DNA from: Pontibacter sp. G13
Lineage (GTDB): Bacteria; Bacteroidota; Bacteroidia; J057
Assembly: GCF_031851795.1 (NCBI RefSeq)
Contig: NZ_CP134696.1
Span: 4,546,501-4,610,500 of the forward strand
DNA length: 64,000 nucleotides
Reading direction: 5' to 3'
The position numbers and the translations under genes were made by a program. The notes below the pieces were generated by a model. It made no database searches. It was given only the letters and a program-made list of their open reading frames with translations, and had not been told where the DNA came from. How positions within the stretch are numbered: the stretch's first letter is position 1; every line of letters starts with the position of its first letter. Below are positions 50,899 to 62,860 of this stretch, piece after piece.

Positions 50899-52170
50899 TC
50901 ATTCTGCTTGCTGGAGCTGTGTGGTCTCTTGTGCAATGCGATCTCGCTGCTGCTTGCTCAATCCTTGACGGAAATACACCTGCGGATCGTGGTAGGTGCC
51001 GGTCTGCTTCATCCGGGGATCGTCGAGGGTTTGGCTGAGGTCGCAATCAAACCGCGCCAAAATCGAGTGGGGATTGACGCCGTTTTTGCCGGCATTGGTG
51101 AAGTGCGAAAGCCCCCAAGTGATGCCCTGTCCATCGCGGGTATCGGTAAAGGCATCGGGCACATACGGTCCCGGCGCGATCGGAACCAATTCGCAGATGG
51201 AAGCCACCTCGAAATTGACCCAATCCTCGGCATATTGAATCGTGAAATGCTCGGTCCCGTCCTTGACCGTGATGGAAGCGACGCCCTCCTTGAATGGAAA
51301 GAGGCTGACTTCGTGTCCGGAGCTGGTCACGGGATTGAGGGGATGCTTGACAAATGGCCCAAGCGGATCATCGGCAATGGCCAATCCACCGCCCACCCAG
51401 ACGGGATTGGGACGATTGAATGCGGATTTGTAGTACAGGTAGATCTTGCCGTCGTGCACCAACGGATAGGGATCGTGGATGGCATACTGATCCCAAGCGC
51501 CCTCGGGACCATTTTCGATGATGATCCGATTTGTCGGGGTCCAAGGTCCATCCGGCGAGTCGGCGAAGGAGGCTGTCACTGGGCAATAATCTCCGCGCTT
51601 GCCGCTAGCCTCCATGAATCCCTGATAGTAGAGATAGTATTTACCTTGCCACTTGAGGATGTCCGTGGTCGTCACGGATCGCCAGCCCACATGGGGTTTG
51701 GGCGGTCTGGGAACGGCGACGCCTTGCTCCTCCCATGTGAACCCGTCCTCGCTGGTGGCATACCAGATCTCCGCAAGATCCCAATCCGTGGAGGGAATGG
51801 TATCGTTACTTTCGTGTGCGCGCTTGGCTCCGACCGGAATCACGGGCGTTTTGCGGCGGGTGTACCAGACGTAGTAGCGGCCATTCTCGAATATGATCTT
51901 GGAGGGATCTCTCCTCGAAATCGTCCCATCATGTCCGTGGTAGTCCAATCCCTTCAACTCGGTGTATTTGAACTGGGAATACAGCTCATTGTCCCGCGGG
52001 TGAATGGCGCTGTAATGATGGAAACTTCTTTCCATGGCAGCGCTCAAGGTCCGCTTCGGGGTATTTTCCGTGATGGTGTATGGGAAGGGCGATTGAGTTT
52101 CCGAAGCGTCTGTCGGCGCTTGACAGGCTGTGGCCAAGCACGCCAGTAGGAGTAGGTAGATTCTGTGCAT
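50899..52170 (-). CDS. GH117-type anhydro-galactosidase lipoprotein
   Basis: The 423-residue protein has a lipobox ending at C16 (ACLATAC) and a five-bladed propeller with hallmark GH117 stretches: TISRRDPSKIIFENGRYYVWYTRRKT (D88 in RRDPS), DQYAIHDPYPLV (D233) and SSGHEVSLFPF (H286, E287). Known GH117 enzymes release 3,6-anhydro-L-galactose from the non-reducing end of neoagaro-oligosaccharides. The lipid anchor suggests a periplasmic or surface place. It is the last gene of the operon, nine bases after the GH16 gene. Confidence 0.85.
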   Translation of the reverse strand: MHRIYLLLLACLATACQAPTDASETQSPFPYTITENTPKRTLSAAMERSFHHYSAIHPRDNELYSQFKYTELKGLDYHGHDGTISRRDPSKIIFENGRYYVWYTRRKTPVIPVGAKRAHESNDTIPSTDWDLAEIWYATSEDGFTWEEQGVAVPRPPKPHVGWRSVTTTDILKWQGKYYLYYQGFMEASGKRGDYCPVTASFADSPDGPWTPTNRIIIENGPEGAWDQYAIHDPYPLVHDGKIYLYYKSAFNRPNPVWVGGGLAIADDPLGPFVKHPLNPVTSSGHEVSLFPFKEGVASITVKDGTEHFTIQYAEDWVNFEVASICELVPIAPGPYVPDAFTDTRDGQGITWGLSHFTNAGKNGVNPHSILARFDCDLSQTLDDPRMKQTGTYHDPQVYFRQGLSKQQRDRIAQETTQLQQAE

Positions 52171-52179
52171 GATGGTGGG

Positions 52180-53250
52180 TTAGGGCGTTTGGGGAATGGG
52201 GGATTTGTCTTTCTGAATGTTGCCTCCTCCTTGCGGCTGCTGGTTTTCCCAGGGCCAATCCATCTTCACCGCTTGCTTGTGGCGATAGTACCGGAAGTAG
52301 TCGAAATCCATGTGCATCTCCTGGACGGGGTGTGTGTTGGTCCCCGCCTCCATCCGAGCCCAGATATACCGGGCGATGATGTTGCCAAGAATCCAGAAAC
52401 CGGGCGTTCGAGCCTGATTGCCGATGGTGTTGAGCGTGTAACTTTGCTCCGGCTGTTGGGGATTTTCCTCCACGAATTTCACCACACGCTCTCCCATGTG
52501 CTGCCAAGCGCCGTTTTCCCAATTCCAGAGTTTGAGATACTCGGGCGTATATTCGAGGCCAATGGTTTGCCAGACGGGATCATAGATTTGGATGGGGCCT
52601 TTGTGCATGACGCCTTTTTCTGCGTTGGGGCCTTTGGTGATCACCTTGCGCTTTTCGCCTTGGCTATCTTTCAATCTCGCAGGTGCATCGCTGCTCCATC
52701 CGTTGGCCCCGTTTTCCCATTCCATGAGGTCGATTTCCAGCCAGAAGTCTCGGGATTCGGAGGCAAATTGCTTGACACCCGCCCGGCTATCTCCAATGGC
52801 GCTCCAGACGGCGGGGTGCCAAACGGTTCCATGCTCACGGACTTCCTCGGAGTCAAATCCCCGGTATCGGAACCGCACGACATAAAATCCATAGAATCCG
52901 GTCGCCTTGCTCACGAGTCCTGCTGTACGTGGGGGGCCATTCTTCGCGGTGCCGAGCAGGGAAACATATTGATTGAGGGTACCATCTGAGCGGGTTTCCG
53001 ATTCCATGCTCACGAGCGATTCGTCGCGAAAATGAGGCTCAATGGACCCTCCGCCAGTATTGCGCCGTCCCCATTTGAGGGTGTCGAGTTGGGGCCCGTT
53101 GAATTCATCCGAAAGGCTGTTGTCTCGATAGGAAACGTATTGCTTCCGTGACTCTTTGGGGAGTTGTTGGGGCGTTTGGGCCCATGATTTTGCTGGGAAA
53201 ATCAGGGCACTCAACCACCATGTGAAGGCCAGATGTTTGAAGCGAATCAT
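52180..53250 (-). CDS. GH16-family endo-galactanase (agarase/porphyranase type)
   Basis: The 356-residue protein has a signal peptide (to about residue 24) and a GH16 beta-jelly-roll: LSDEFNGPQLDTLKW at the start and the catalytic motif ExDxxE as EIDLME (E172, D174, E177). The WHPAVWS stretch (144-150) lies in the substrate cleft. The GH16 family contains agarases, porphyranases and kappa-carrageenases; which one this is cannot be settled by reading, but the GH117 neighbour favours an agar-type substrate. It is soluble periplasmic or secreted. Confidence 0.85.
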   Translation of the reverse strand: MIRFKHLAFTWWLSALIFPAKSWAQTPQQLPKESRKQYVSYRDNSLSDEFNGPQLDTLKWGRRNTGGGSIEPHFRDESLVSMESETRSDGTLNQYVSLLGTAKNGPPRTAGLVSKATGFYGFYVVRFRYRGFDSEEVREHGTVWHPAVWSAIGDSRAGVKQFASESRDFWLEIDLMEWENGANGWSSDAPARLKDSQGEKRKVITKGPNAEKGVMHKGPIQIYDPVWQTIGLEYTPEYLKLWNWENGAWQHMGERVVKFVEENPQQPEQSYTLNTIGNQARTPGFWILGNIIARYIWARMEAGTNTHPVQEMHMDFDYFRYYRHKQAVKMDWPWENQQPQGGGNIQKDKSPIPQTP

Positions 53251-53274: not shown

Positions 53275-54390
53275 TTATTCGTGGATCTTGATTTCTAGGG
53301 GAATCTGCACATTGAAGGAATGGCGAATGTTGTTCGCATCGATCGTATCCGCAGCGCAAAGGAGTGCGACGGGCTTTCCATCTTGGATGAATACCTGCGG
53401 ACGTTCCAAGTGATCGAGGTCCAGGAGCTCTCCGTCCTCCCAAGTGATTTCGGTTTCGGAGAGGTGGAAATGTTTGGCCTGCTCCCAATGGATACCATCC
53501 ATAGAATCGTAATGCACCAGTGAGAATAGTCGCTTCTTTCCCTCGTGTTTGATGCGTTTCACGATGGCGCGGAACTTCCCCTCCTGATACCAAATGTAGG
53601 GGTCTTCGGCGGGAAATCGCTCTCCTTCGAAGGTGAAGACCGGATCGGGAAATTTCTTGAAAGGCCCGGTCGGACTATCGGCAATCGCCACCATGTGTAC
53701 CACAGGACCACCTTTGGGCAGGGCTATTTGCTTGCCTACCGCTTTGTAGACCATGAGGATTCTACCATCGGGCATTTGACACACGGAGGGATTCGAAGTC
53801 ATCAACGCATCGTGAGCGCTGCTGTCTCCAGCGGTGATATCCAATACGGGCGTATCAAATCGCGTCCAAGGGCCATTCGGATCATCTGCCACGGCCACGC
53901 CAATACGCTGATTGTTGCGGTGCTGCCAATTGAGTTTTGGCTTGCCGGGAACACTGACAATGTCCCGATCTCCGGTAGTGCCCATGTGGTACAGGTAGTA
54001 CTTGCCGTCAAATTTGTGAACAGTGGGATTGTGGGTGGTCATTCCATCCCAAAATTCCTTCCCGCGCATCGGGAGCGCCACATCTTGAAAGGTGAATGGG
54101 CCATAGGGGGATTCGGAGGTGGCGTGGGCGATCTCCGAATAAGTCACCCATTCCCAACCGATGGCTTTGGGCCACTGCGAATAGAACAGGTGATACAAGC
54201 CATCTGGACCTTCCACCAGTGAGCCGCCCCAAATGCTGAGACTGTCATGGACGAAGACGGATGAGCGGGAGACTTTGCCTAGCGAAATGTCGAAATCACT
54301 GGGCTTTTGTGGGGCTTCGGTCTGCTGTGCAGTTGTGCATGCAGTGAATAGGACCATGCCCCAAATGAGGTGGATAAGTGGAGATTTCAT
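53275..54390 (-). CDS. GH43/GH117-like propeller hydrolase lipoprotein
   Basis: The start at 54390 (MKSPLIHLIWGMVLFTACTTAQQ) gives 371 residues with a lipobox at C18; an upstream in-frame codon overlaps the GH2 gene. It has a five-bladed propeller with SIWGGSLVEGPDGLYHLFYSQWPK, MTTHNPTVHKFDGKYYLYH and AEDPYIWYQEGKFRAIVKR motifs. These suit the GH43/GH117/GH32 superfamily (clan GH-F/J-like), but I cannot assign a known family. It probably removes a terminal sugar from red algal galactan oligosaccharides. It starts five bases after the GH2 stop. Confidence 0.7.
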   Translation of the reverse strand: MKSPLIHLIWGMVLFTACTTAQQTEAPQKPSDFDISLGKVSRSSVFVHDSLSIWGGSLVEGPDGLYHLFYSQWPKAIGWEWVTYSEIAHATSESPYGPFTFQDVALPMRGKEFWDGMTTHNPTVHKFDGKYYLYHMGTTGDRDIVSVPGKPKLNWQHRNNQRIGVAVADDPNGPWTRFDTPVLDITAGDSSAHDALMTSNPSVCQMPDGRILMVYKAVGKQIALPKGGPVVHMVAIADSPTGPFKKFPDPVFTFEGERFPAEDPYIWYQEGKFRAIVKRIKHEGKKRLFSLVHYDSMDGIHWEQAKHFHLSETEITWEDGELLDLDHLERPQVFIQDGKPVALLCAADTIDANNIRHSFNVQIPLEIKIHE

Positions 54391-54395
54391 GTGCG

Positions 54396-57300
54396 TTATT
54401 CGTAGCGTCTGAAGGTTTCGGATTGGGCTTGTATGATGGGTGACCATTGGCTATCTCCGCTTGGGAGGGTTCGCTTGAGTTGGAGATACATCGTCGTTTC
54501 CCCTGCAAGATCCACCGTCATCATGCCTCGTGCATGGGAGGTGATCTGATCGTCGAGTGATTGGGGCGTTTTGCCATACCGGATGGTGTAGGACTGATCC
54601 GCCCATTCACCCGAATATCCCACCACAAGCTTGTTGTCAGCGATAAACGCATCCCAGATGATCGGCGCCAATGCTGCCCCTTGAAGGGTTGCTTTTTGGC
54701 GTTTGGAAGGTTGACTCGCTCCTTTTCCATTCCAAGCCACCAATTGCCATTCTACCTGAGATCCGGCAGGCAAACTGTCTAATTCGATGTAGGGAGCAAT
54801 GGTCTTGTCTGTCTGAAAGCGTTGGCCATCCACCGTGTAGATCAGTTCATATTCAAAGGCATCTGACGCCTTGGTGAAATGCACCCGAAGGCCCTTCGCT
54901 GAAACTTTCGCTTCGTCGATGACAGGACGATTGGGGACCTCGAAGAAGATCGTTTGATCATGGCGATTGTATCCATTCGGGGTCATCAATGCCACATGCA
55001 GGCGGTTGGGCCTTCCCCGAAATCTCGGCCAAGCGATCTCTTGAGTGATCAGATCCATGCCCGGGAGCAAGTCCGGTAATTCTGCCGTTTGCTGGCTCAG
55101 GAGCTGTCCCGTCTCGTCGAGGAGTTCATACCTCAATTGGTAGCCTTTCAGGGCGAAACTGGGGAAGTCATTCGCGGTTCGGATCTGAATGGCAACCTGA
55201 GCAGTTTGATTCGCTAGATCGAGATTTTTTACTTCGAATCGCTTTAATGGGCTGTTTTCGCGACGATGGGTGTAGTAGGAGCGCCGTTTGGTACGCCATG
55301 CATTCACCAATCCCCAAGCGCGGTTTTCGGAAGCCAAGGTCAAATTGTACCCACTCTTGTAATCGTTGTAGGTCCAGATAGAAGCGCCAGTCGTGTAAGG
55401 ACGTTTGCTGCGAATGAGGTCATACCAAGGCCCCAGCCCCGGAATATCGTTGTCGAGGCTCGGCGAGGTGAAGCGTTCAATCCCGAATTCAGAAAAGAAC
55501 ATCGCTTGGTCCGGCCATCGGTTGTGTAGCGTATCCATGATCGCTCCGGGATTCTTGGAGTAAATATTCTGGAAAATCATGTCTCCGTAGGCCAATGGAT
55601 TGTTCTCTGCAGATTCTCCCGGTTTGTAGCCTTGATTGCTGACGTGCAGGGCCATGCGGTTGGGATCGAGTCTTTTGGCGAATTCATAGGTGGATTTCAC
55701 ATAGTGGAAATGCTCCGTCAATTCGTTGCCGACACTCCAACCGACAATGCAGGGGTGATTGACATCGCGCTCGATCATCTCCTGGATCCATTGCTTGGCA
55801 AGGGGATAATCAGGTGCTGTCAATTCAGGATTGGTCAGCTCACGAATATTGGCTTCCTCCACGATCAATATGCCCTGTTCATCGCACCGATCCAGCAAGC
55901 GTTTATTCTGCGTGCCGTGCATGATTCGCATGAAATTGGCCCCAGACTGCTTCATCATGTCCACATCAAAGTCGATGAGCTCCTGTGGTTCCGATGAGCC
56001 CCAATACCGATGGTCGCTCACCCGGTTGAAGCCCACCAGTCGGACAGGTTCCCCATTCAGCAACATCTGGGTGGAGGTCGCTTCGAATTTCCGGATGCCA
56101 AATCGATCTCGTTTGACATGGATGGGGTTTCCTGCTGAAAGCAGCGTGGTTGTCAGTGTGTACAGTTCAGGGCGGTCGAAATGCCAGAGCTTGACTTGAT
56201 CTGCGGTCAGGGTACCCGTCAGGGAAAACTCCCGAATACTGTGCGCCGGAACTTGAACAGGGATCGTCTGTGAGCTTTCGAGGGAAGCATGGGAAATATT
56301 CGCTTGGATCGAAAGGGTCCTTGTTACGGCAGCGTTGTTCTCCACGCGCACCTTGAGTTCCCAAGTAGCGGTTCCGTCAGTCAGATTCGGCTCAGCATGA
56401 ATGTATTGGTAGGGAATGCGTACCTCATTCGACCGTATCAATCGGACATCCCGGATAATTCCGCCCCAGTTCCAAGTAGCGCCCACGATGAAGTTATTGT
56501 CTGCTTGAACGGCGAGGATGTTTTCCCCGGTTGGATTCAGTTGATCAGTTACATCAAACTCGAAGGGGGTAAATCCGCCTTGATGGGTGCCGATGTATGT
56601 GCCGTTGAGATAGACTTTGGCGAGGTGGTAGACTCCATCGAATGCCACTCGAATGCGTTCATTCTCGGTTTGTGTCCAAGTATCCGGCAGATTGAACGCT
56701 TTGCGATACCAGCCTTTTCCGGTGTAGTTGGCAAATTCGTTGATCATGCCCCAGTGCCCCGGAACTTTCAAGTCGTGCCAATCAGTGTCGTCATATTCGG
56801 GCTTGAAGACGGATATTTTCTGCGAATGCGCCTGACGAATCGTTTCCTCAGAAACAGGGCGAAGCATAACGGCATCTGCGACCACTTGTCCATGAGTGAT
56901 GGCCGTGACTTCGGTGAAATGATCGGCAGCAGGATCGACCTTGAAAATCCCCAAGCTGACCCAGCGTGCATTTCGGTTGCGCTGACTGATGTGTTGGGTG
57001 TAGGTTCCATGCGCGTGCCGGATATTGACCTGCGTCGTCAGATGATTGCCAAAGGGGTAATAGATAAAGTGCTCGTAATACCCGGCATTCGGGACGTCGG
57101 ATTTGAAGCGCACATAGGCATCATCTCCGTCGTGGAAATAGCGCTTGAGGAAGTTGGATTTCCAGTGCTGTACGCCCCGCTCCATCTGGTCGATGGTCTG
57201 CCATTTGCCGTGAACTTCCACGAATGGAGATTGCGAGTTGTCAAACACGAAGTCCTCATCTGTGGGCTGGATGTCCAGATAATTGGAACCATCTCCAAAG

Positions 57301-57419
57301 AGCGTCTGGAATTTCCAGTAGCCATTGAGCGAGAGGGTGTCCTGTGCGGAAGCATTCAGCATCACACTCAGGAATGCGAATAGGCACATGCCCATTCGTG
57401 CTGTGAATGGTTGAAGCAT
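54396..57419 (-). CDS. GH2-family glycosidase with inserted golvesin-like domain
   Basis: The 1007-residue protein has a signal peptide (to about residue 25), GH2 sugar-binding, immunoglobulin-like and TIM-barrel domains, and catalytic E566 (WSVGNELTEH) and E644 (FFSEFGIERF). Between the GH2 N-terminal strand (GYWKFQT, 33-38) and the sugar-binding domain (from about 205, DTDWHDLKVPGHWG) is an extra 130-residue block. Its features (FKSDVPNAGYYEHFIYYPFGNHLTTQVNIRHAHG, WVSLGIFKVDPA, GQVVADAVMLRP) match golvesin/xanthan-lyase-type carbohydrate-binding domains. A C-terminal fibronectin-like part follows. It is most likely a beta-galactosidase of the locus. Confidence 0.85.
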   Translation of the reverse strand: MLQPFTARMGMCLFAFLSVMLNASAQDTLSLNGYWKFQTLFGDGSNYLDIQPTDEDFVFDNSQSPFVEVHGKWQTIDQMERGVQHWKSNFLKRYFHDGDDAYVRFKSDVPNAGYYEHFIYYPFGNHLTTQVNIRHAHGTYTQHISQRNRNARWVSLGIFKVDPAADHFTEVTAITHGQVVADAVMLRPVSEETIRQAHSQKISVFKPEYDDTDWHDLKVPGHWGMINEFANYTGKGWYRKAFNLPDTWTQTENERIRVAFDGVYHLAKVYLNGTYIGTHQGGFTPFEFDVTDQLNPTGENILAVQADNNFIVGATWNWGGIIRDVRLIRSNEVRIPYQYIHAEPNLTDGTATWELKVRVENNAAVTRTLSIQANISHASLESSQTIPVQVPAHSIREFSLTGTLTADQVKLWHFDRPELYTLTTTLLSAGNPIHVKRDRFGIRKFEATSTQMLLNGEPVRLVGFNRVSDHRYWGSSEPQELIDFDVDMMKQSGANFMRIMHGTQNKRLLDRCDEQGILIVEEANIRELTNPELTAPDYPLAKQWIQEMIERDVNHPCIVGWSVGNELTEHFHYVKSTYEFAKRLDPNRMALHVSNQGYKPGESAENNPLAYGDMIFQNIYSKNPGAIMDTLHNRWPDQAMFFSEFGIERFTSPSLDNDIPGLGPWYDLIRSKRPYTTGASIWTYNDYKSGYNLTLASENRAWGLVNAWRTKRRSYYTHRRENSPLKRFEVKNLDLANQTAQVAIQIRTANDFPSFALKGYQLRYELLDETGQLLSQQTAELPDLLPGMDLITQEIAWPRFRGRPNRLHVALMTPNGYNRHDQTIFFEVPNRPVIDEAKVSAKGLRVHFTKASDAFEYELIYTVDGQRFQTDKTIAPYIELDSLPAGSQVEWQLVAWNGKGASQPSKRQKATLQGAALAPIIWDAFIADNKLVVGYSGEWADQSYTIRYGKTPQSLDDQITSHARGMMTVDLAGETTMYLQLKRTLPSGDSQWSPIIQAQSETFRRYE

Positions 57420-57464: not shown

Positions 57465-59744
57465 CTATCGGACGACCCATTCGAATAGAGCTGCCGGAAT
57501 ATGTTCGCTCGGGTGCTCCATTTTCAGGACCAATCCCTTCACGTGAGTTTCTGGTGGCAACGCATGGACATTGAGGGTCTGGTAGTTGCCTGTGACCTCG
57601 GCCAGCAATTGACCTTCGAGATCGAAGATTTGGTAATTGCGAACGCAAAACGGCATGACGGATTCTGGATGGCCCATAAGAGTCGATTCCATGGCGTGGT
57701 CGTAATCTGTGTCCCAAAACAGGCGGATTTCCGAGACTGGGCGATCCGCTTCCCATTCCACCGTGAGGGTAGGAGTCGGGTCTGCTAAGTCAGCTACCCA
57801 AGCATTGACCGAGCGAATGGGTCTCACCCATCCGTTGCCAAGATTCGTCGCTTCGAATGCCTCGATGGTAGGGCTGATTTTCATGGCGAGATTGTGTCCG
57901 GATGGCCTTCTTTGGGGAATCCAAAATTCGAATGCGTCGATGCCAATGTCTTTTGGGGGGCGTTGGCTGCCATCGTTTGACACAGCTTTATTCACCCCAT
58001 TGAATACCGAAAGTACCCCTGTATATCGCTGCTCGGACTGGCGGATTTGCACTGATTCATTCGCCAGAAAAGTCAGAAACCCATATTGCTCCTCCTCCAA
58101 TTCGCAGGAAAAGGAAACTGTCATCTCTTGCACGCCTTGAGCCAAATGTAGGGTTTGAGATTCCAACACGACCTCTGGGGTGAAATGCTCAGGATGTGCC
58201 GACGTTCGTAGTTGGACTTCCAGAGAGGTAGCCGCAGTTGCTTGTACTTGTATGGAAAAAGAATAGGCTTGTCGAGCTTTGAGCGGAATCATCTGGGCCG
58301 CCGAAGTCTTCAGATTCAGCCATTCTCTATCAGCGGGAATTTCTGCCAACTTCAAGGCTGAAGACGCGGAATACTTTGCTTGATTGAGGGCATTTCCTCC
58401 TGATGGAATCGCTGTTCCGGGAATGCTCTGCCCGATGAGATTCAGGGCTTCTTGCAATTGCTGGATTCCGGGGTCTTCAGAAAGTCCTGCTGGAGAAAGG
58501 TGCTGCTGCGTGCATAATGCCGCCGCCATTCCGACCGCTTGACCGCCCGCTCCACAGGTCGCCATCACACGCGTAGAACCGAATGCCACGTGGGAGGCAC
58601 TGATGATTCGCCCGGCGAGAAAGAGATTGTCGATGTCCTTGCTGTAATAGCAGCGGTAGGGAATGCTGTAGATCCCCTTGGAATGCCATTGGGTACAGCC
58701 GGATCGTTCGCTGTAAATGCCGTCTGCCGGGTGGAGGTCCAGTGCCCAGCCCCCAAAGGCTACTGCATCTTCAAATCGTCGCTGCTCGATGACATCCTGC
58801 TGCTTGAGGATGTAGGGCCCTTCGAATCTCCGACTCTCGCGCTTGCCTGGGATGGTGGCTACCCACTCCAAGGTCAGATCGTCCACATCGTCGAATTCGC
58901 CTGAATTTTTGATGTAATCCCACACGCCATAAATCACCTTCCACAGCTCGTATTTGATCTCCTCGGTTTGGTGAATGGTGTCTGTCCGGCCGCCATATTC
59001 AAACCACCAGAATCGGCATCCCATGTCGGTTTTACTGATGAGCTTGTAGCGGGGAATTTCCGTGATATCCTTCAGCGCATAGGAGGGAGGAATGTACCGG
59101 ACAGGTGTCCCAGCGGATTTGCTGTAGAAATACATGGAATGTCCCAGCAACTCCCCATAGGCTTCATCGGGGGCAAAGCCCTCTCCGAATTCCGACTGTT
59201 TTTCCGCCCCCATCCGAAAGCTAGCCCCTGCCTGAAAAGCCACAATCCCGTCACCGGACGCATCGCAAAAAAGCGGTGCCGAAAGCTGGTACCGTGTGGA
59301 GTTTTGTGGGTTGAAGGCCGTGACGGACTGGATGGTTTGGGCGTTGGATTTCGTCACTTCGTAAACTGCTGTATTCAGCAGCAGGGTGATATTGGGCTCT
59401 TGAAGTACCTTGTCGAGCAGGACCGTGTCGAAGATGACGGCATTGCCTTCAGGATTGCGGTACATATTCTCCACGAGAAGTTCGTCCATGACCCCGCCTT
59501 CTCTGGACCATCGGTTGTTGTTTCCCATATGCGAGGTCGCGCCCAAAATCCAAAGCCTGACTTCTGAAGACGCATTGCCTCCCAATACTGGGCGGTCTTG
59601 GACCAATATGGTTTGGGTGCCTTGACGGGCTGCGGTGATCGCAGCGCAAACACCTGCGATTCCTCCGCCGACGATCACGAGTTCGGCGGATAGATGCTGG
59701 GTGCGATTCTCCCGTCGATCCGATTGAAATTCCGCTTGTATCAT
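57465..59744 (-). CDS. Cytosolic FAD-dependent oxidoreductase (FAD_oxidored type)
   Basis: The 759-residue protein has no signal peptide. It starts with a Rossmann dinucleotide motif (VIVGGGIAGVCAAITAARQG, GGGIAG at 26-31), the PVLGGNASSEVRLW block, and the FAD-binding C-terminal segment LFLAGRIISASHVAFGSTRVMATCGAGGQAVGMAAALC (about 380-418). The last 300 residues form two beta-sandwich, discoidin-like domains. Such proteins are frequent in marine PULs but unassigned. Being cytosolic and five bases after the SSS gene, it probably acts on an imported sugar. Confidence 0.75.
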   Translation of the reverse strand: MIQAEFQSDRRENRTQHLSAELVIVGGGIAGVCAAITAARQGTQTILVQDRPVLGGNASSEVRLWILGATSHMGNNNRWSREGGVMDELLVENMYRNPEGNAVIFDTVLLDKVLQEPNITLLLNTAVYEVTKSNAQTIQSVTAFNPQNSTRYQLSAPLFCDASGDGIVAFQAGASFRMGAEKQSEFGEGFAPDEAYGELLGHSMYFYSKSAGTPVRYIPPSYALKDITEIPRYKLISKTDMGCRFWWFEYGGRTDTIHQTEEIKYELWKVIYGVWDYIKNSGEFDDVDDLTLEWVATIPGKRESRRFEGPYILKQQDVIEQRRFEDAVAFGGWALDLHPADGIYSERSGCTQWHSKGIYSIPYRCYYSKDIDNLFLAGRIISASHVAFGSTRVMATCGAGGQAVGMAAALCTQQHLSPAGLSEDPGIQQLQEALNLIGQSIPGTAIPSGGNALNQAKYSASSALKLAEIPADREWLNLKTSAAQMIPLKARQAYSFSIQVQATAATSLEVQLRTSAHPEHFTPEVVLESQTLHLAQGVQEMTVSFSCELEEEQYGFLTFLANESVQIRQSEQRYTGVLSVFNGVNKAVSNDGSQRPPKDIGIDAFEFWIPQRRPSGHNLAMKISPTIEAFEATNLGNGWVRPIRSVNAWVADLADPTPTLTVEWEADRPVSEIRLFWDTDYDHAMESTLMGHPESVMPFCVRNYQIFDLEGQLLAEVTGNYQTLNVHALPPETHVKGLVLKMEHPSEHIPAALFEWVVR

Positions 59745-59749
59745 TTGTG

Positions 59750-61399
59750 CTAGCGCTTGTTTTTGAGGGTGATGATAGATCCGAGCAGGGTGATGAGGAT
59801 TCCCATACTTCCGACGAGCAATTGGGATTCATTTCCCATCAAGGCCAAAATGAAGATGAGTACGCCTGTAGCCGTGGTGCCCATGCCGAAGACTCGCACG
59901 CCTTGCCGATTTTCCGAATTGGAAGTGGGCAGGGGATCTTCTTGCACAGGGACGGTACGTGTCGCTTGGTACTGATCATAATCCGCAGTACTGCCACCGG
60001 TGAAGTAGCCCCATGCTTCGAAGGCTGTGAGCAACAACAAGGGAATGCCTACGCCCACGCTCATTTCCTCCATTCGGTCGAAGCTGTGGCCGATGGTGTG
60101 GGGCATGATGAATTTGAAAAATCCATTGATTACCAATGCCACAAGGGTCGTGACCAAAGCAGTTCTGCCAGTAAGCCGTTTGGAAAAAAGGGCCCAGATC
60201 GGAGGTAGAAACATGGCGCCGCCTGTCACAGCCGCCAATCCCATGACGACCTCCACGATTCCGCCCATGGCAGGCACGAGCAGCGCCACTACAATGGTGA
60301 TAAGCCCGAGGATAACCGTAGACAAACGTCCGATCTTGAGGAGTTTCTCCGAGCTGGTTTTGGGGAAGAATCCACGATAGAGGTCATGCGTGAGTACGCC
60401 CGCAGAAATGTTGAGCGTCGTGTTGACAGAGCTAGAAGTCGCGAATACCATTCCGCCGATCATCAGCCCCATCATCCCCACGGGCAAGACTTTTTGGCAC
60501 ATCAGCAGATAGGCCCCCTCATCGGCAAGTCCTTCCAAGCTGGGATTCATGGTCCGGTAGATCATGGGAGGAAGCATCCAGATGACAGGGCTAATGATGT
60601 AGAGGGCGCTAAAGAGCCAACCGACTTTCTGGGCATCTTTCGGAGTAGAGACAGATGTGTATCGCTGGACATACGCCCAGTTACCTGCAATGAAGAACAG
60701 GTTGTAAAGCCCAAAGGCCAGCATGAATCCCCACGTATATTCCGAGTTGGTGAGCTCAAACAGGTCTGCGGGCGCTTGCTCAATGAATCCTCCCAAGCCT
60801 CCTACCTGATCCAGTGCCAAGGGAACCACGATGAATACGGCCGCCGTCAACACCACAAATTGTAGCACATCCGTCACAATCACTGCCCATAGCCCTCCGG
60901 TAGCTGTGTAAATCAGGATCAACACCCCAATACACAAGATGCTCGCATAGATTGGAATGCCGGTGGAGACCTCCACGATCTTGGCTACAGGATACAGGAA
61001 CGCTCCCGTGGTAAACATGCTGATCAGGAGAAATAGGTAGGTGTAGACCTGCTGAATGCGTGGTCCCAGTCGCTCGGAGATAAATTGAGCCGCCGTCATG
61101 GCACGTGTCTTGTGCCAACGAGGCGCAATGAACAACCCGATGACCAGTCCAGCTATGCTCATGGTCCATTGGATCGTAACAGCCACCCAGCCACTCGTGT
61201 AGGCAATCGATCCCCAGACCACGAAGGTTCCTGCGGAGAAAAAACTCATAAAGAGGGAGAGTCCGCTCATCCACCAAGGGAGCGATCCTCCCGCGGCAAA
61301 ATAGGACTTGACATTGCTTCCAGATCTGGAAAAACTCATTCCGCAGATGAAGATCAATGCGGTGAACAAGAGTAGCGTTACGAGGTCAATAGTCGGCAT
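59750..61399 (-). CDS. Sodium/solute symporter (SSS family)
   Basis: I start at the ATG at 61399 (MPTIDLVTLLLFTALIFICG), giving 549 residues, since the frame from 61468 adds a non-membrane stretch. About 13-14 membrane spans are visible, with GSLPWWMSGLSLFMSFFSAGTFVVWGSIAYTSGW and the sodium-site region SSVNTTLNISAGVLTHDLYR. SSS members import sugars, amino acids or vitamins with sodium. Leading the operon, it likely brings the final sugar product into the cytosol. Confidence 0.88.
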   Translation of the reverse strand: MPTIDLVTLLLFTALIFICGMSFSRSGSNVKSYFAAGGSLPWWMSGLSLFMSFFSAGTFVVWGSIAYTSGWVAVTIQWTMSIAGLVIGLFIAPRWHKTRAMTAAQFISERLGPRIQQVYTYLFLLISMFTTGAFLYPVAKIVEVSTGIPIYASILCIGVLILIYTATGGLWAVIVTDVLQFVVLTAAVFIVVPLALDQVGGLGGFIEQAPADLFELTNSEYTWGFMLAFGLYNLFFIAGNWAYVQRYTSVSTPKDAQKVGWLFSALYIISPVIWMLPPMIYRTMNPSLEGLADEGAYLLMCQKVLPVGMMGLMIGGMVFATSSSVNTTLNISAGVLTHDLYRGFFPKTSSEKLLKIGRLSTVILGLITIVVALLVPAMGGIVEVVMGLAAVTGGAMFLPPIWALFSKRLTGRTALVTTLVALVINGFFKFIMPHTIGHSFDRMEEMSVGVGIPLLLLTAFEAWGYFTGGSTADYDQYQATRTVPVQEDPLPTSNSENRQGVRVFGMGTTATGVLIFILALMGNESQLLVGSMGILITLLGSIITLKNKR

Positions 61400-61584
61400 G
61401 GTTCTGGATTCGGCGAATAGTCTCAGGGCAGGGGAGGCGTTCAAAAGGGAAGCTATATCCGTTTCCACAGGCGTTTTGCGGAGGATATTCCCACTGCTTC
61501 ATCCAAAACTATGGAAGATTTTTTCCAAGCTTTTAGCTAGCTTGTATCCATCTTTGGAACAAATGAATGAATAGGCTAAGTCGC

Positions 61585-61630: not shown

Positions 61631-62860
61631 ATGAACAAGGACGCGCTACCAAAACTGATCAAATTTGTCGAGCAGAAACTAGACAGGGGCAAGTGTGAAA
61701 ACTGGACCAATGGGGATTTTGAAATTCTGAGTGCCGAAATTCGTCGGGCCACCAAAGTCTCCATCAGTGCGGCGACGCTCAAACGGATCTTCGGGAAGGT
61801 CAGCGTGAGTGAGGGCTACTCGCCACAGCGTGCCACGCTTGATGCCTTGATGCAATACGCCGATTTCGAAGCGAAAGAGCAAGCTGCAACAACAGTCAGT
61901 CAAAAGCGCCGCCTGCATTACCGGTGGTTGGTCGGAGTTGCAAGCATCTTTGCCATCCTGCTCATTGGCTGGCAAATGTGGATGAATTCCTCCAATGAAC
62001 CTGCTTTTCAGCCTCAAGGCACCATCACCCTCCAAAGTCTAGAAGGAACCTGTCCCTCCACAGCCTTTTTTCGGCTTGCGCTAGATAGCATCTCGGGATA
62101 CCGGGTGACCTTTGACGATGAGTCCAAACCGTTGGCGATTCCCCCTGTTGCTGAATTCTCCTTCCCGCATTTCTATGCCTATCCGGGCTATTTTACACCA
62201 AAACTCTGGCATGACAATCGGATTGTCGCTACTGGGGAACCTGTGCTGGTAGAAACAGAGGGATGGCAAGCGTTCGCGTCGCTCTACAAGGACTCGGAGC
62301 CTCGCACCCGCTTTCACCCCATCAGAATCTCGGATAATGTCACGGATGGAGAGTTCTTTATTTCCAAGCCCCACCTTTCGCAAGCGGGATTGGATACGAC
62401 CAAAATTCTGGTGGTACAGCTTGATCATTATTCACCCATGCATGTTTCCGCGGATGAATTCGTCTATCAGACCCGCATCAAGAACGACGAGTTTTGGCCG
62501 GGTCTTAGATGCTATTCCATGCACCTTCGGATTCAAGGGACCGAGGGGAAAGTTGAGTTCAAATTGGTAGGGGAGGGATGTAGCGGATTTAGTGAAGCCA
62601 CCATTGGTAAGCACAAAGTGACGGATAAGGTTCGACTACAATCCTTGGCGTTGGATGTTTCGGAGTGGAATGATATCCAGATTTCTCATCTGGCAAATAG
62701 AGTCGAACTGTTGGTGAATGATCGATTGCTATTCGAAGGAAAGACGCTGGAATCTTTGGGGGAATTGATTGGGACCTCGCTGATATTCCACGGGAGCGGT
62801 AAGGTCGATTTTGTCAAGCTATCTGTTGGCGGAAAGAAGCGATTGGAAAGCCCCTTTTGA
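61631..62860 (+). CDS. Membrane-spanning protein with N-terminal HTH-like domain
   Basis: The 409-residue protein has a cytosolic N-terminal domain with W25 and ISAATLKRIFGKVSVSEGYSPQRATLDAL (about 45-73), a helix-turn-helix-like block common at the start of Bacteroidota sensor proteins. One membrane span follows (99-118, LVGVASIFAILLIGWQMWM), then a large periplasmic part with two beta-sandwich regions, the last one LamG/concanavalin-like. It is divergent from the SSS-GH operon. It could be a one-component transmembrane regulator; direct DNA binding is not proved. Confidence 0.65.
   Translation: MNKDALPKLIKFVEQKLDRGKCENWTNGDFEILSAEIRRATKVSISAATLKRIFGKVSVSEGYSPQRATLDALMQYADFEAKEQAATTVSQKRRLHYRWLVGVASIFAILLIGWQMWMNSSNEPAFQPQGTITLQSLEGTCPSTAFFRLALDSISGYRVTFDDESKPLAIPPVAEFSFPHFYAYPGYFTPKLWHDNRIVATGEPVLVETEGWQAFASLYKDSEPRTRFHPIRISDNVTDGEFFISKPHLSQAGLDTTKILVVQLDHYSPMHVSADEFVYQTRIKNDEFWPGLRCYSMHLRIQGTEGKVEFKLVGEGCSGFSEATIGKHKVTDKVRLQSLALDVSEWNDIQISHLANRVELLVNDRLLFEGKTLESLGELIGTSLIFHGSGKVDFVKLSVGGKKRLESPF

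Follow-up and report, generated by a model that had tools for sequence, protein, structure and literature searches.

We analyzed a 64,000-nucleotide stretch of the Pontibacter sp. G13 genome (positions 4,546,501 to 4,610,500, forward strand, of contig NZ_CP134696.1; RefSeq assembly GCF_031851795.1), referred to here as the window. Our subject is a pair of adjoining genes at window positions 57465 to 61399, which encode a sodium:solute symporter family (SSS) importer and a PF12831 FAD-dependent oxidoreductase (here, the flavoenzyme). The two genes head a minus-strand operon with the order SSS, flavoenzyme, GH2, GH43-like, GH16-like, and GH117 (GH, glycoside hydrolase), and a divergent plus-strand gene lies upstream of the SSS gene. 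The features are as follows (aa, amino acids).

59750 to 61399, minus strand: SSS importer, 549 aa, first gene of the operon (PF00474, E = 6e-41)
57465 to 59744, minus strand: PF12831 FAD-dependent oxidoreductase, cytosolic, 759 aa (PF12831, E = 6e-98; 80 homologues)
58443 to 59681, minus strand: FAD domain of the flavoenzyme (aa 22 to 434; Pfam match and alignment)
57468 to 58400, minus strand: C-terminal part of the flavoenzyme (aa 449 to 759), a CBM32/F5-8-type domain interrupted by an inserted beta-sandwich (structure models)
57885 to 58307, minus strand: inserted second beta-sandwich of the flavoenzyme (aa ~480 to 620; secondary structure and aligned ranges)
54396 to 57419, minus strand: exported GH2 protein with a Golvesin_C domain (Pfam)
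53275 to 54390, minus strand: exported GH43-like protein (PF04616, E = 2e-8)
52180 to 53250, minus strand: exported GH16-like protein (sequence motif EIDLMEWE)
50899 to 52170, minus strand: GH117 lipoprotein of the Zobellia Zg3597/Zg3615 type (4U6D, E = 1.5e-187)
61631 to 62860, plus strand: 409-aa protein, divergent from the operon, with an N-terminal domain, one hydrophobic segment, and a C-terminal domain

The SSS gene ends at 59750, and 5 bp separate it from the flavoenzyme gene; the gene coordinates thus bear out a preliminary description of this DNA, which placed the two genes at the operon head, five bases apart. The longest SSS open reading frame (ORF) begins at a GTG at 61468, and the starts of its homologues line up with the ATG at 61399. 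When 84,980 species genomes were scanned, the 80 best loci with a flavoenzyme homologue were obtained (56 to 67% identity, nearly all full length), and conservation of this extent in 80 named genomes rules out that the flavoenzyme gene is a chance ORF. The hosts were marine Flavobacteriia, other marine Bacteroidota, soil Bacteroidota (including Pedobacter, Chitinophaga, Niastella, and Spirosoma), and one Bacteroides; two host bins were labelled outside Bacteroidota (Verrucomicrobiales and Wenzhouxiangella). Of these loci, 66 have an SSS gene; in 50 of 78, it immediately precedes the flavoenzyme gene in the same orientation, and the gap is mostly shorter than 50 bp. The window genome carries approximately 10 SSS genes in 7.67 Mb (13 matches, some being two halves of one gene), so that the chance of one adjoining a given gene is, by a rough estimate, a fraction of a percent. 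The pairwise identities of the paired SSS and FAD proteins were correlated (Spearman, 0.60; reached in 0 of 999 Mantel shuffles), although the correlation partly reflects species relatedness, which the shuffle test leaves in. In a phylum-wide sample, none of the other 117 genomes contained an orthologue (one contained a 42% paralogue), indicating that the module is patchy. We conclude that the SSS and flavoenzyme genes form a conserved two-gene module. The pairing is genuine, as the preliminary description had supposed, and a functional link between the two proteins is highly probable.

The flavoenzyme matched PF12831 (FAD_oxidored) along nearly the whole profile (329 bits against a cut-off of 27; profile positions 2 to 416 of 416), and no match to the Aldedh (aldehyde dehydrogenase) domain was detected. 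Its GGGxxG dinucleotide motif is intact and is invariant among 59 aligned sequences. The other conserved elements of the FAD domain are DRPVLGGN-SSE-R, H72, PGKRESRRF, H338, H354, and GR-S-SH-A-S-RVM. Among the 59 aligned orthologues, 135 of the 445 positions of the FAD part (aa 1 to 445) and 27 of the 314 remaining positions were invariant. PF12831 is a broad family whose members are, to the extent that we could find, mostly uncharacterised; compared with the family at large, the subfamily found in the window has the motif WILGATSHMGNNNRWxREGG and adds a conserved C-terminal double beta-sandwich. Given these motifs and the predicted fold described below, the protein is very likely a flavoprotein.

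Signal peptides were judged from the sequences and not by SignalP. On this basis, none was seen on the flavoenzyme. The window protein has its GGG at residue 26, and the stretch before it is short and not hydrophobic; most of the 80 homologues likewise have a GGG that begins at residue 25 to 27 (24 to 26 residues ahead) and no hydrophobic leader; the few homologues with longer N termini look like over-extended ORF starts. In contrast, the GH2, GH16-like, and GH117 products start with signal or lipoprotein sequences. This short conserved N terminus agrees with the earlier statement that the flavoenzyme, unlike the exported enzymes of its operon, has no signal peptide.

AlphaFold2 models had pTM values of 0.87 for the whole flavoenzyme and 0.85 for its C-terminal part alone. 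The modelled FAD domain resembles fumarate reductases, geranylgeranyl reductases, and Thi4. Its likeness to the fumarate reductase/flavocytochrome c class is one of fold (Foldseek E, ~1e-10; 1Q9I, Z = 15.8, root mean square deviation of 4.2 Å over 227 residues); unlike that class, the flavoenzyme, which has low identity to it, has no cytochrome and carries a C-terminal sugar-binding-type domain. The latter is of the CBM32/F5-8 type, with a galactose-binding-like fold (8AYR, Z = 16.6, 1.9 Å over 123 residues), and is also similar to 4A42, 4ZXE, and the galactose-bound 2V72. It is composed of aa ~449 to 478 and ~620 to 759, with the second beta-sandwich (aa ~480 to 620) inserted between them; these boundaries were taken from strand positions and aligned ranges. 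Both models thus recover the two C-terminal beta-sandwiches described previously, with the correction that the second is inserted into the first. A domain of the CBM32/F5-8 type is unusual for a cytosolic enzyme, yet it is conserved here (e.g., in the stretch DTDYDHxMESxLMGHPE). It may take part in substrate binding.

The SSS protein matched PF00474 with 141 bits against a threshold of 22.8. Its best solved relative is vSGLT (2XQ2; E = 5e-30), a sugar transporter.

Taken with the glycoside hydrolase genes that adjoin the pair throughout the relatives' loci, these features suggest the following role. In the periplasm, exported glycosidases (here the GH2, GH43-like, GH16-like, and GH117 proteins; elsewhere GH97, GH2, and six-hairpin enzymes) would set free a sugar or short glycoside, which the SSS protein would then carry into the cell together with sodium. 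One of the early reactions there would be the transfer of a hydride from this imported substrate to FAD, catalysed by the PF12831 enzyme in the cytosol. We infer that the enzyme binds flavin, that it works in the direction of oxidation, and that its substrate is the transported solute. To the full proposal, from periplasmic release through import to oxidation, we assign a probability of roughly 0.5; that the flavoenzyme acts on the transported solute by oxidizing it has, taken by itself, about even odds.

This arrangement has a parallel in the carrageenan polysaccharide utilization locus (PUL) of Zobellia galactanivorans, in which inner-membrane sugar transporter genes adjoin the cytosolic oxidation genes DauA and DauB. 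That PUL differs in its transporters and in relying on a 3,6-anhydro-D-galactose dehydrogenase, and the paper on it contains neither the word FAD nor the word flavin (PMC5698469). The searchable literature on FAD_oxidored, PULs, and symporters contained no published function for the flavoenzyme, in keeping with the preliminary statement that no firm function was known for such a protein in these loci. Likewise, no searchable paper was found to treat GH117, agar, and an FAD-dependent oxidoreductase together. A single passing mention, in Maribacter forsetii, concerns a different gene context (PMC11345257).

Several points weigh against the proposed role. Fourteen of the 80 loci have no visible SSS gene, some through a contig end, and the shuffle test of the identity correlation leaves the effect of species relatedness in place. 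No gene for an electron-accepting partner is present in the window operon. A sequence search against solved structures gave best matches that span only the dinucleotide-binding motif, so the flavoenzyme has no characterised close relative among them. Finally, the galactose-holding residues of vSGLT, Q69, E88, and S91, align with T, Q, and M in the SSS protein (numbered by hand), and the SSS protein may therefore not be a carrier of a simple hexose. As read from this alignment, the lost residues would argue only against vSGLT-like galactose binding and not against a sugar as the solute.

The gene neighbourhoods of the pair vary. In a tree of the homologues, the window protein falls in a mostly marine clade of 27 rows (SH-aLRT, 99). 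The other 26 loci of this clade contain SSS (26 of 26), GH2 (22), GH43-like (15), and GH117 (12) genes and sulfatases (11). The remaining 54 loci contain GH2 (19), six-hairpin-like clusters (12 and 13), GH97 (9), SusC/SusD, and only two GH117 genes. These different glycosidase sets indicate that the module outlives a change of the substrate-specific glycosidases and that GH117 is not a constant partner. Co-occurrence of the pair with GH117, one of the checks named in the preliminary description, was found in 14 of the 80 loci; the GH43-like protein was present in 18. Soil Bacteroidota relatives keep the pair without GH117, which makes an agar-specific anhydrosugar unlikely as the substrate. 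In soil Bacteroidota loci (L050 to L092; clusters c9 and c11), two families of proteins of ~770 to 970 aa with weak GH127/GH88 (six-hairpin) matches were observed beside the flavoenzyme.

Among more specific readings, one special case of the proposed oxidation is that the flavoenzyme oxidizes free D- or L-galactose at C1 and feeds an aldonate dehydratase and an aldolase. A galactonate-dehydratase-like enolase-superfamily gene and a DapA-type aldolase gene lie in or beside the operon in L018, L020, and L024, and a galactokinase gene follows the operon in L047. These neighbours point to hexose metabolism, but they are few (3 of 80 loci for the dehydratase and aldolase) and mutually discordant. 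In addition, galK-galT is present in the window genome (at 5.656 Mb) and DGOK is absent from it, which speaks against D-galactose; a flavoenzyme replacing the D-galactose route is not needed. We therefore consider this special case rather improbable.

Similarly unlikely is the reverse direction, in which the flavoenzyme would be a reductase of an unsaturated or keto sugar derivative from the imported glycan. The fold of its FAD domain is near those of fumarate reductase and geranylgeranyl reductase, and a conserved His/Arg lies, as judged by eye, roughly at the position of the HGANR motif of that class. However, no polysaccharide lyase was identified beside the flavoenzyme, and exo-glycosidases and sulfatases dominate.

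A third possibility is that the flavin is used in a redox-neutral way: a ring carbon is oxidized, a glycosidic bond or substituent leaves, and the product is re-reduced, so that the protein would be an intracellular glycoside-cleaving enzyme. The fused sugar-binding-type domain would suit such an enzyme, as would the absence of an adjacent electron-transfer partner from the cytosolic form, when the exported paralogues described below have a closely linked partner gene. Nevertheless, oxygen or diffusible acceptors can reoxidise FAD without a partner gene, and we know of no flavin enzyme of this fold that cleaves glycosides in a redox-neutral manner. We hold this reading to be a little less likely than the two preceding ones. 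A broader version, to which we give slightly more room but still regard as speculative, is that the pair is an undescribed route, widespread among Bacteroidota, for short glycosides that enter the cell intact and are processed there by the flavin enzyme at a ring hydroxyl, possibly in a redox-neutral way; the pair would then be the flavin counterpart of the known NAD-dependent keto-glycoside pathways.

The remaining reading is that the flavoenzyme is a 3,6-anhydro-L-galactose (AHG) dehydrogenase in place of the usual NAD enzyme. The GH117 genes of the window operon and of the 14 relatives' loci favour it, as does the presence of the flavoenzyme in agar-degrading marine bacteria, Aquimarina agarivorans among them. 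However, the same genome has a canonical NAD-type AHG operon 4.3 Mb from the window locus (L108; C1, 292.5 to 298.1 kb), which encodes a cycloisomerase (5XD7, E = 1e-192), an aldehyde dehydrogenase (L108, 10642 to 12099; best PDB match 6J75, E = 4e-209), an SDR, a zinc alcohol dehydrogenase, and an AhgA-type GH117. L108 shares its gene order with the agar PUL reported from Aquimarina sp. ERC-38, which has the canonical L-AHG pathway (PMC10163077). The aldehyde dehydrogenase of that pathway is of the NAD type and not a flavin enzyme, and its counterpart, L108, lies apart from the window locus. A PfkB-type kinase gene and a KDPG-aldolase-like gene were also observed at C1, ~2.487 Mb (L118); as read from their sequences, they are probably the lower part of the L-AHG pathway.

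None of the GH117 proteins encoded close to the pair belongs to the AhgA type. The window GH117 is closest to 4U6D (E = 1.5e-187) and 4U6B (E = 1.3e-159), which are presumably Zobellia Zg3597 and Zg3615, and matches AhgA (3P2N) only with E = 5e-59; likewise, the Zg3597/Zg3615 type is the closest one for all 16 GH117 proteins of the relatives' loci. One of these two Zobellia proteins was reportedly solved with AHG bound, in a structure paper of 2015, so the substrate outside the cell may be of the agar type. Given the canonical operon and the soil relatives without GH117, it is very unlikely that the flavoenzyme stands in for the AHG dehydrogenase, and such a replacement was rejected.

The preliminary description had thus joined two ideas that fared differently. 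Replacement of the usual dehydrogenase does not hold, because the genome has both an NAD-type AHG dehydrogenase and galK-galT, while a first intracellular oxidation of the imported sugar stays the best reading for some other sugar or glycoside. The remark in that description that the window has no usual dehydrogenase makes no difference here, since one is encoded elsewhere in the genome. For the marine clade, the substrate would be a galactan-derived sugar other than AHG or free D-galactose, and the leading candidates are L-galactose and a short glycoside taken up intact.

Regarding the other operon genes, the nearest NCBIfam model for the GH2 protein is beta-galactosidase GalA (E = 6e-70), below the GalA cut-off. 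The GH43-like gene probably starts at the ATG at 54390; the ORF is open to 54447. The GH16-like protein had no Pfam match even at an E value of 0.1, and its homologues occur in four marine loci among those of the 80 relatives (L016, L019, L025, and L027). A LacI-type regulator gene, nearly always divergent, is present in 43 of the 80 loci. The divergent 409-aa gene (61631 to 62860, plus strand) sits where LacI is encoded in many relatives; its product had no Pfam match and is possibly a PUL regulator of another kind, membrane bound.

Exported PF12831 paralogues were observed in the same genome (L093, 6953 to 10091, corresponding to C1, ~6.421 to 6.424 Mb) and in L055, L085, L086, and L095. The L093 paralogue has a twin-arginine and lipobox-like leader, and GH2 and GH29 genes lie near it. 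A second gene, coding for a protein of 358 to 381 aa, overlaps each paralogue gene or lies close beside it. In three of the five partner proteins, a D-A-[VI]-T-G-A-T motif resembling the ApbE flavinylation (FMN-attachment) site is kept; L093 has HAVSGAS, and L095 has lost the motif. The partner proteins had no Pfam match to FMN_bind, and that the two form a periplasmic flavin electron-transfer pair, which the motif suggests may be so, is a lead only.

The presence of a separate canonical operon in this genome cautions that a GH117 gene is no proof that its own operon handles anhydro-galactose. The transporter-flavoenzyme pair is conserved in dozens of Bacteroidota glycan operons, and no assigned role was found for it; that role would bridge the outside digestion of algal and plant glycans and central metabolism.

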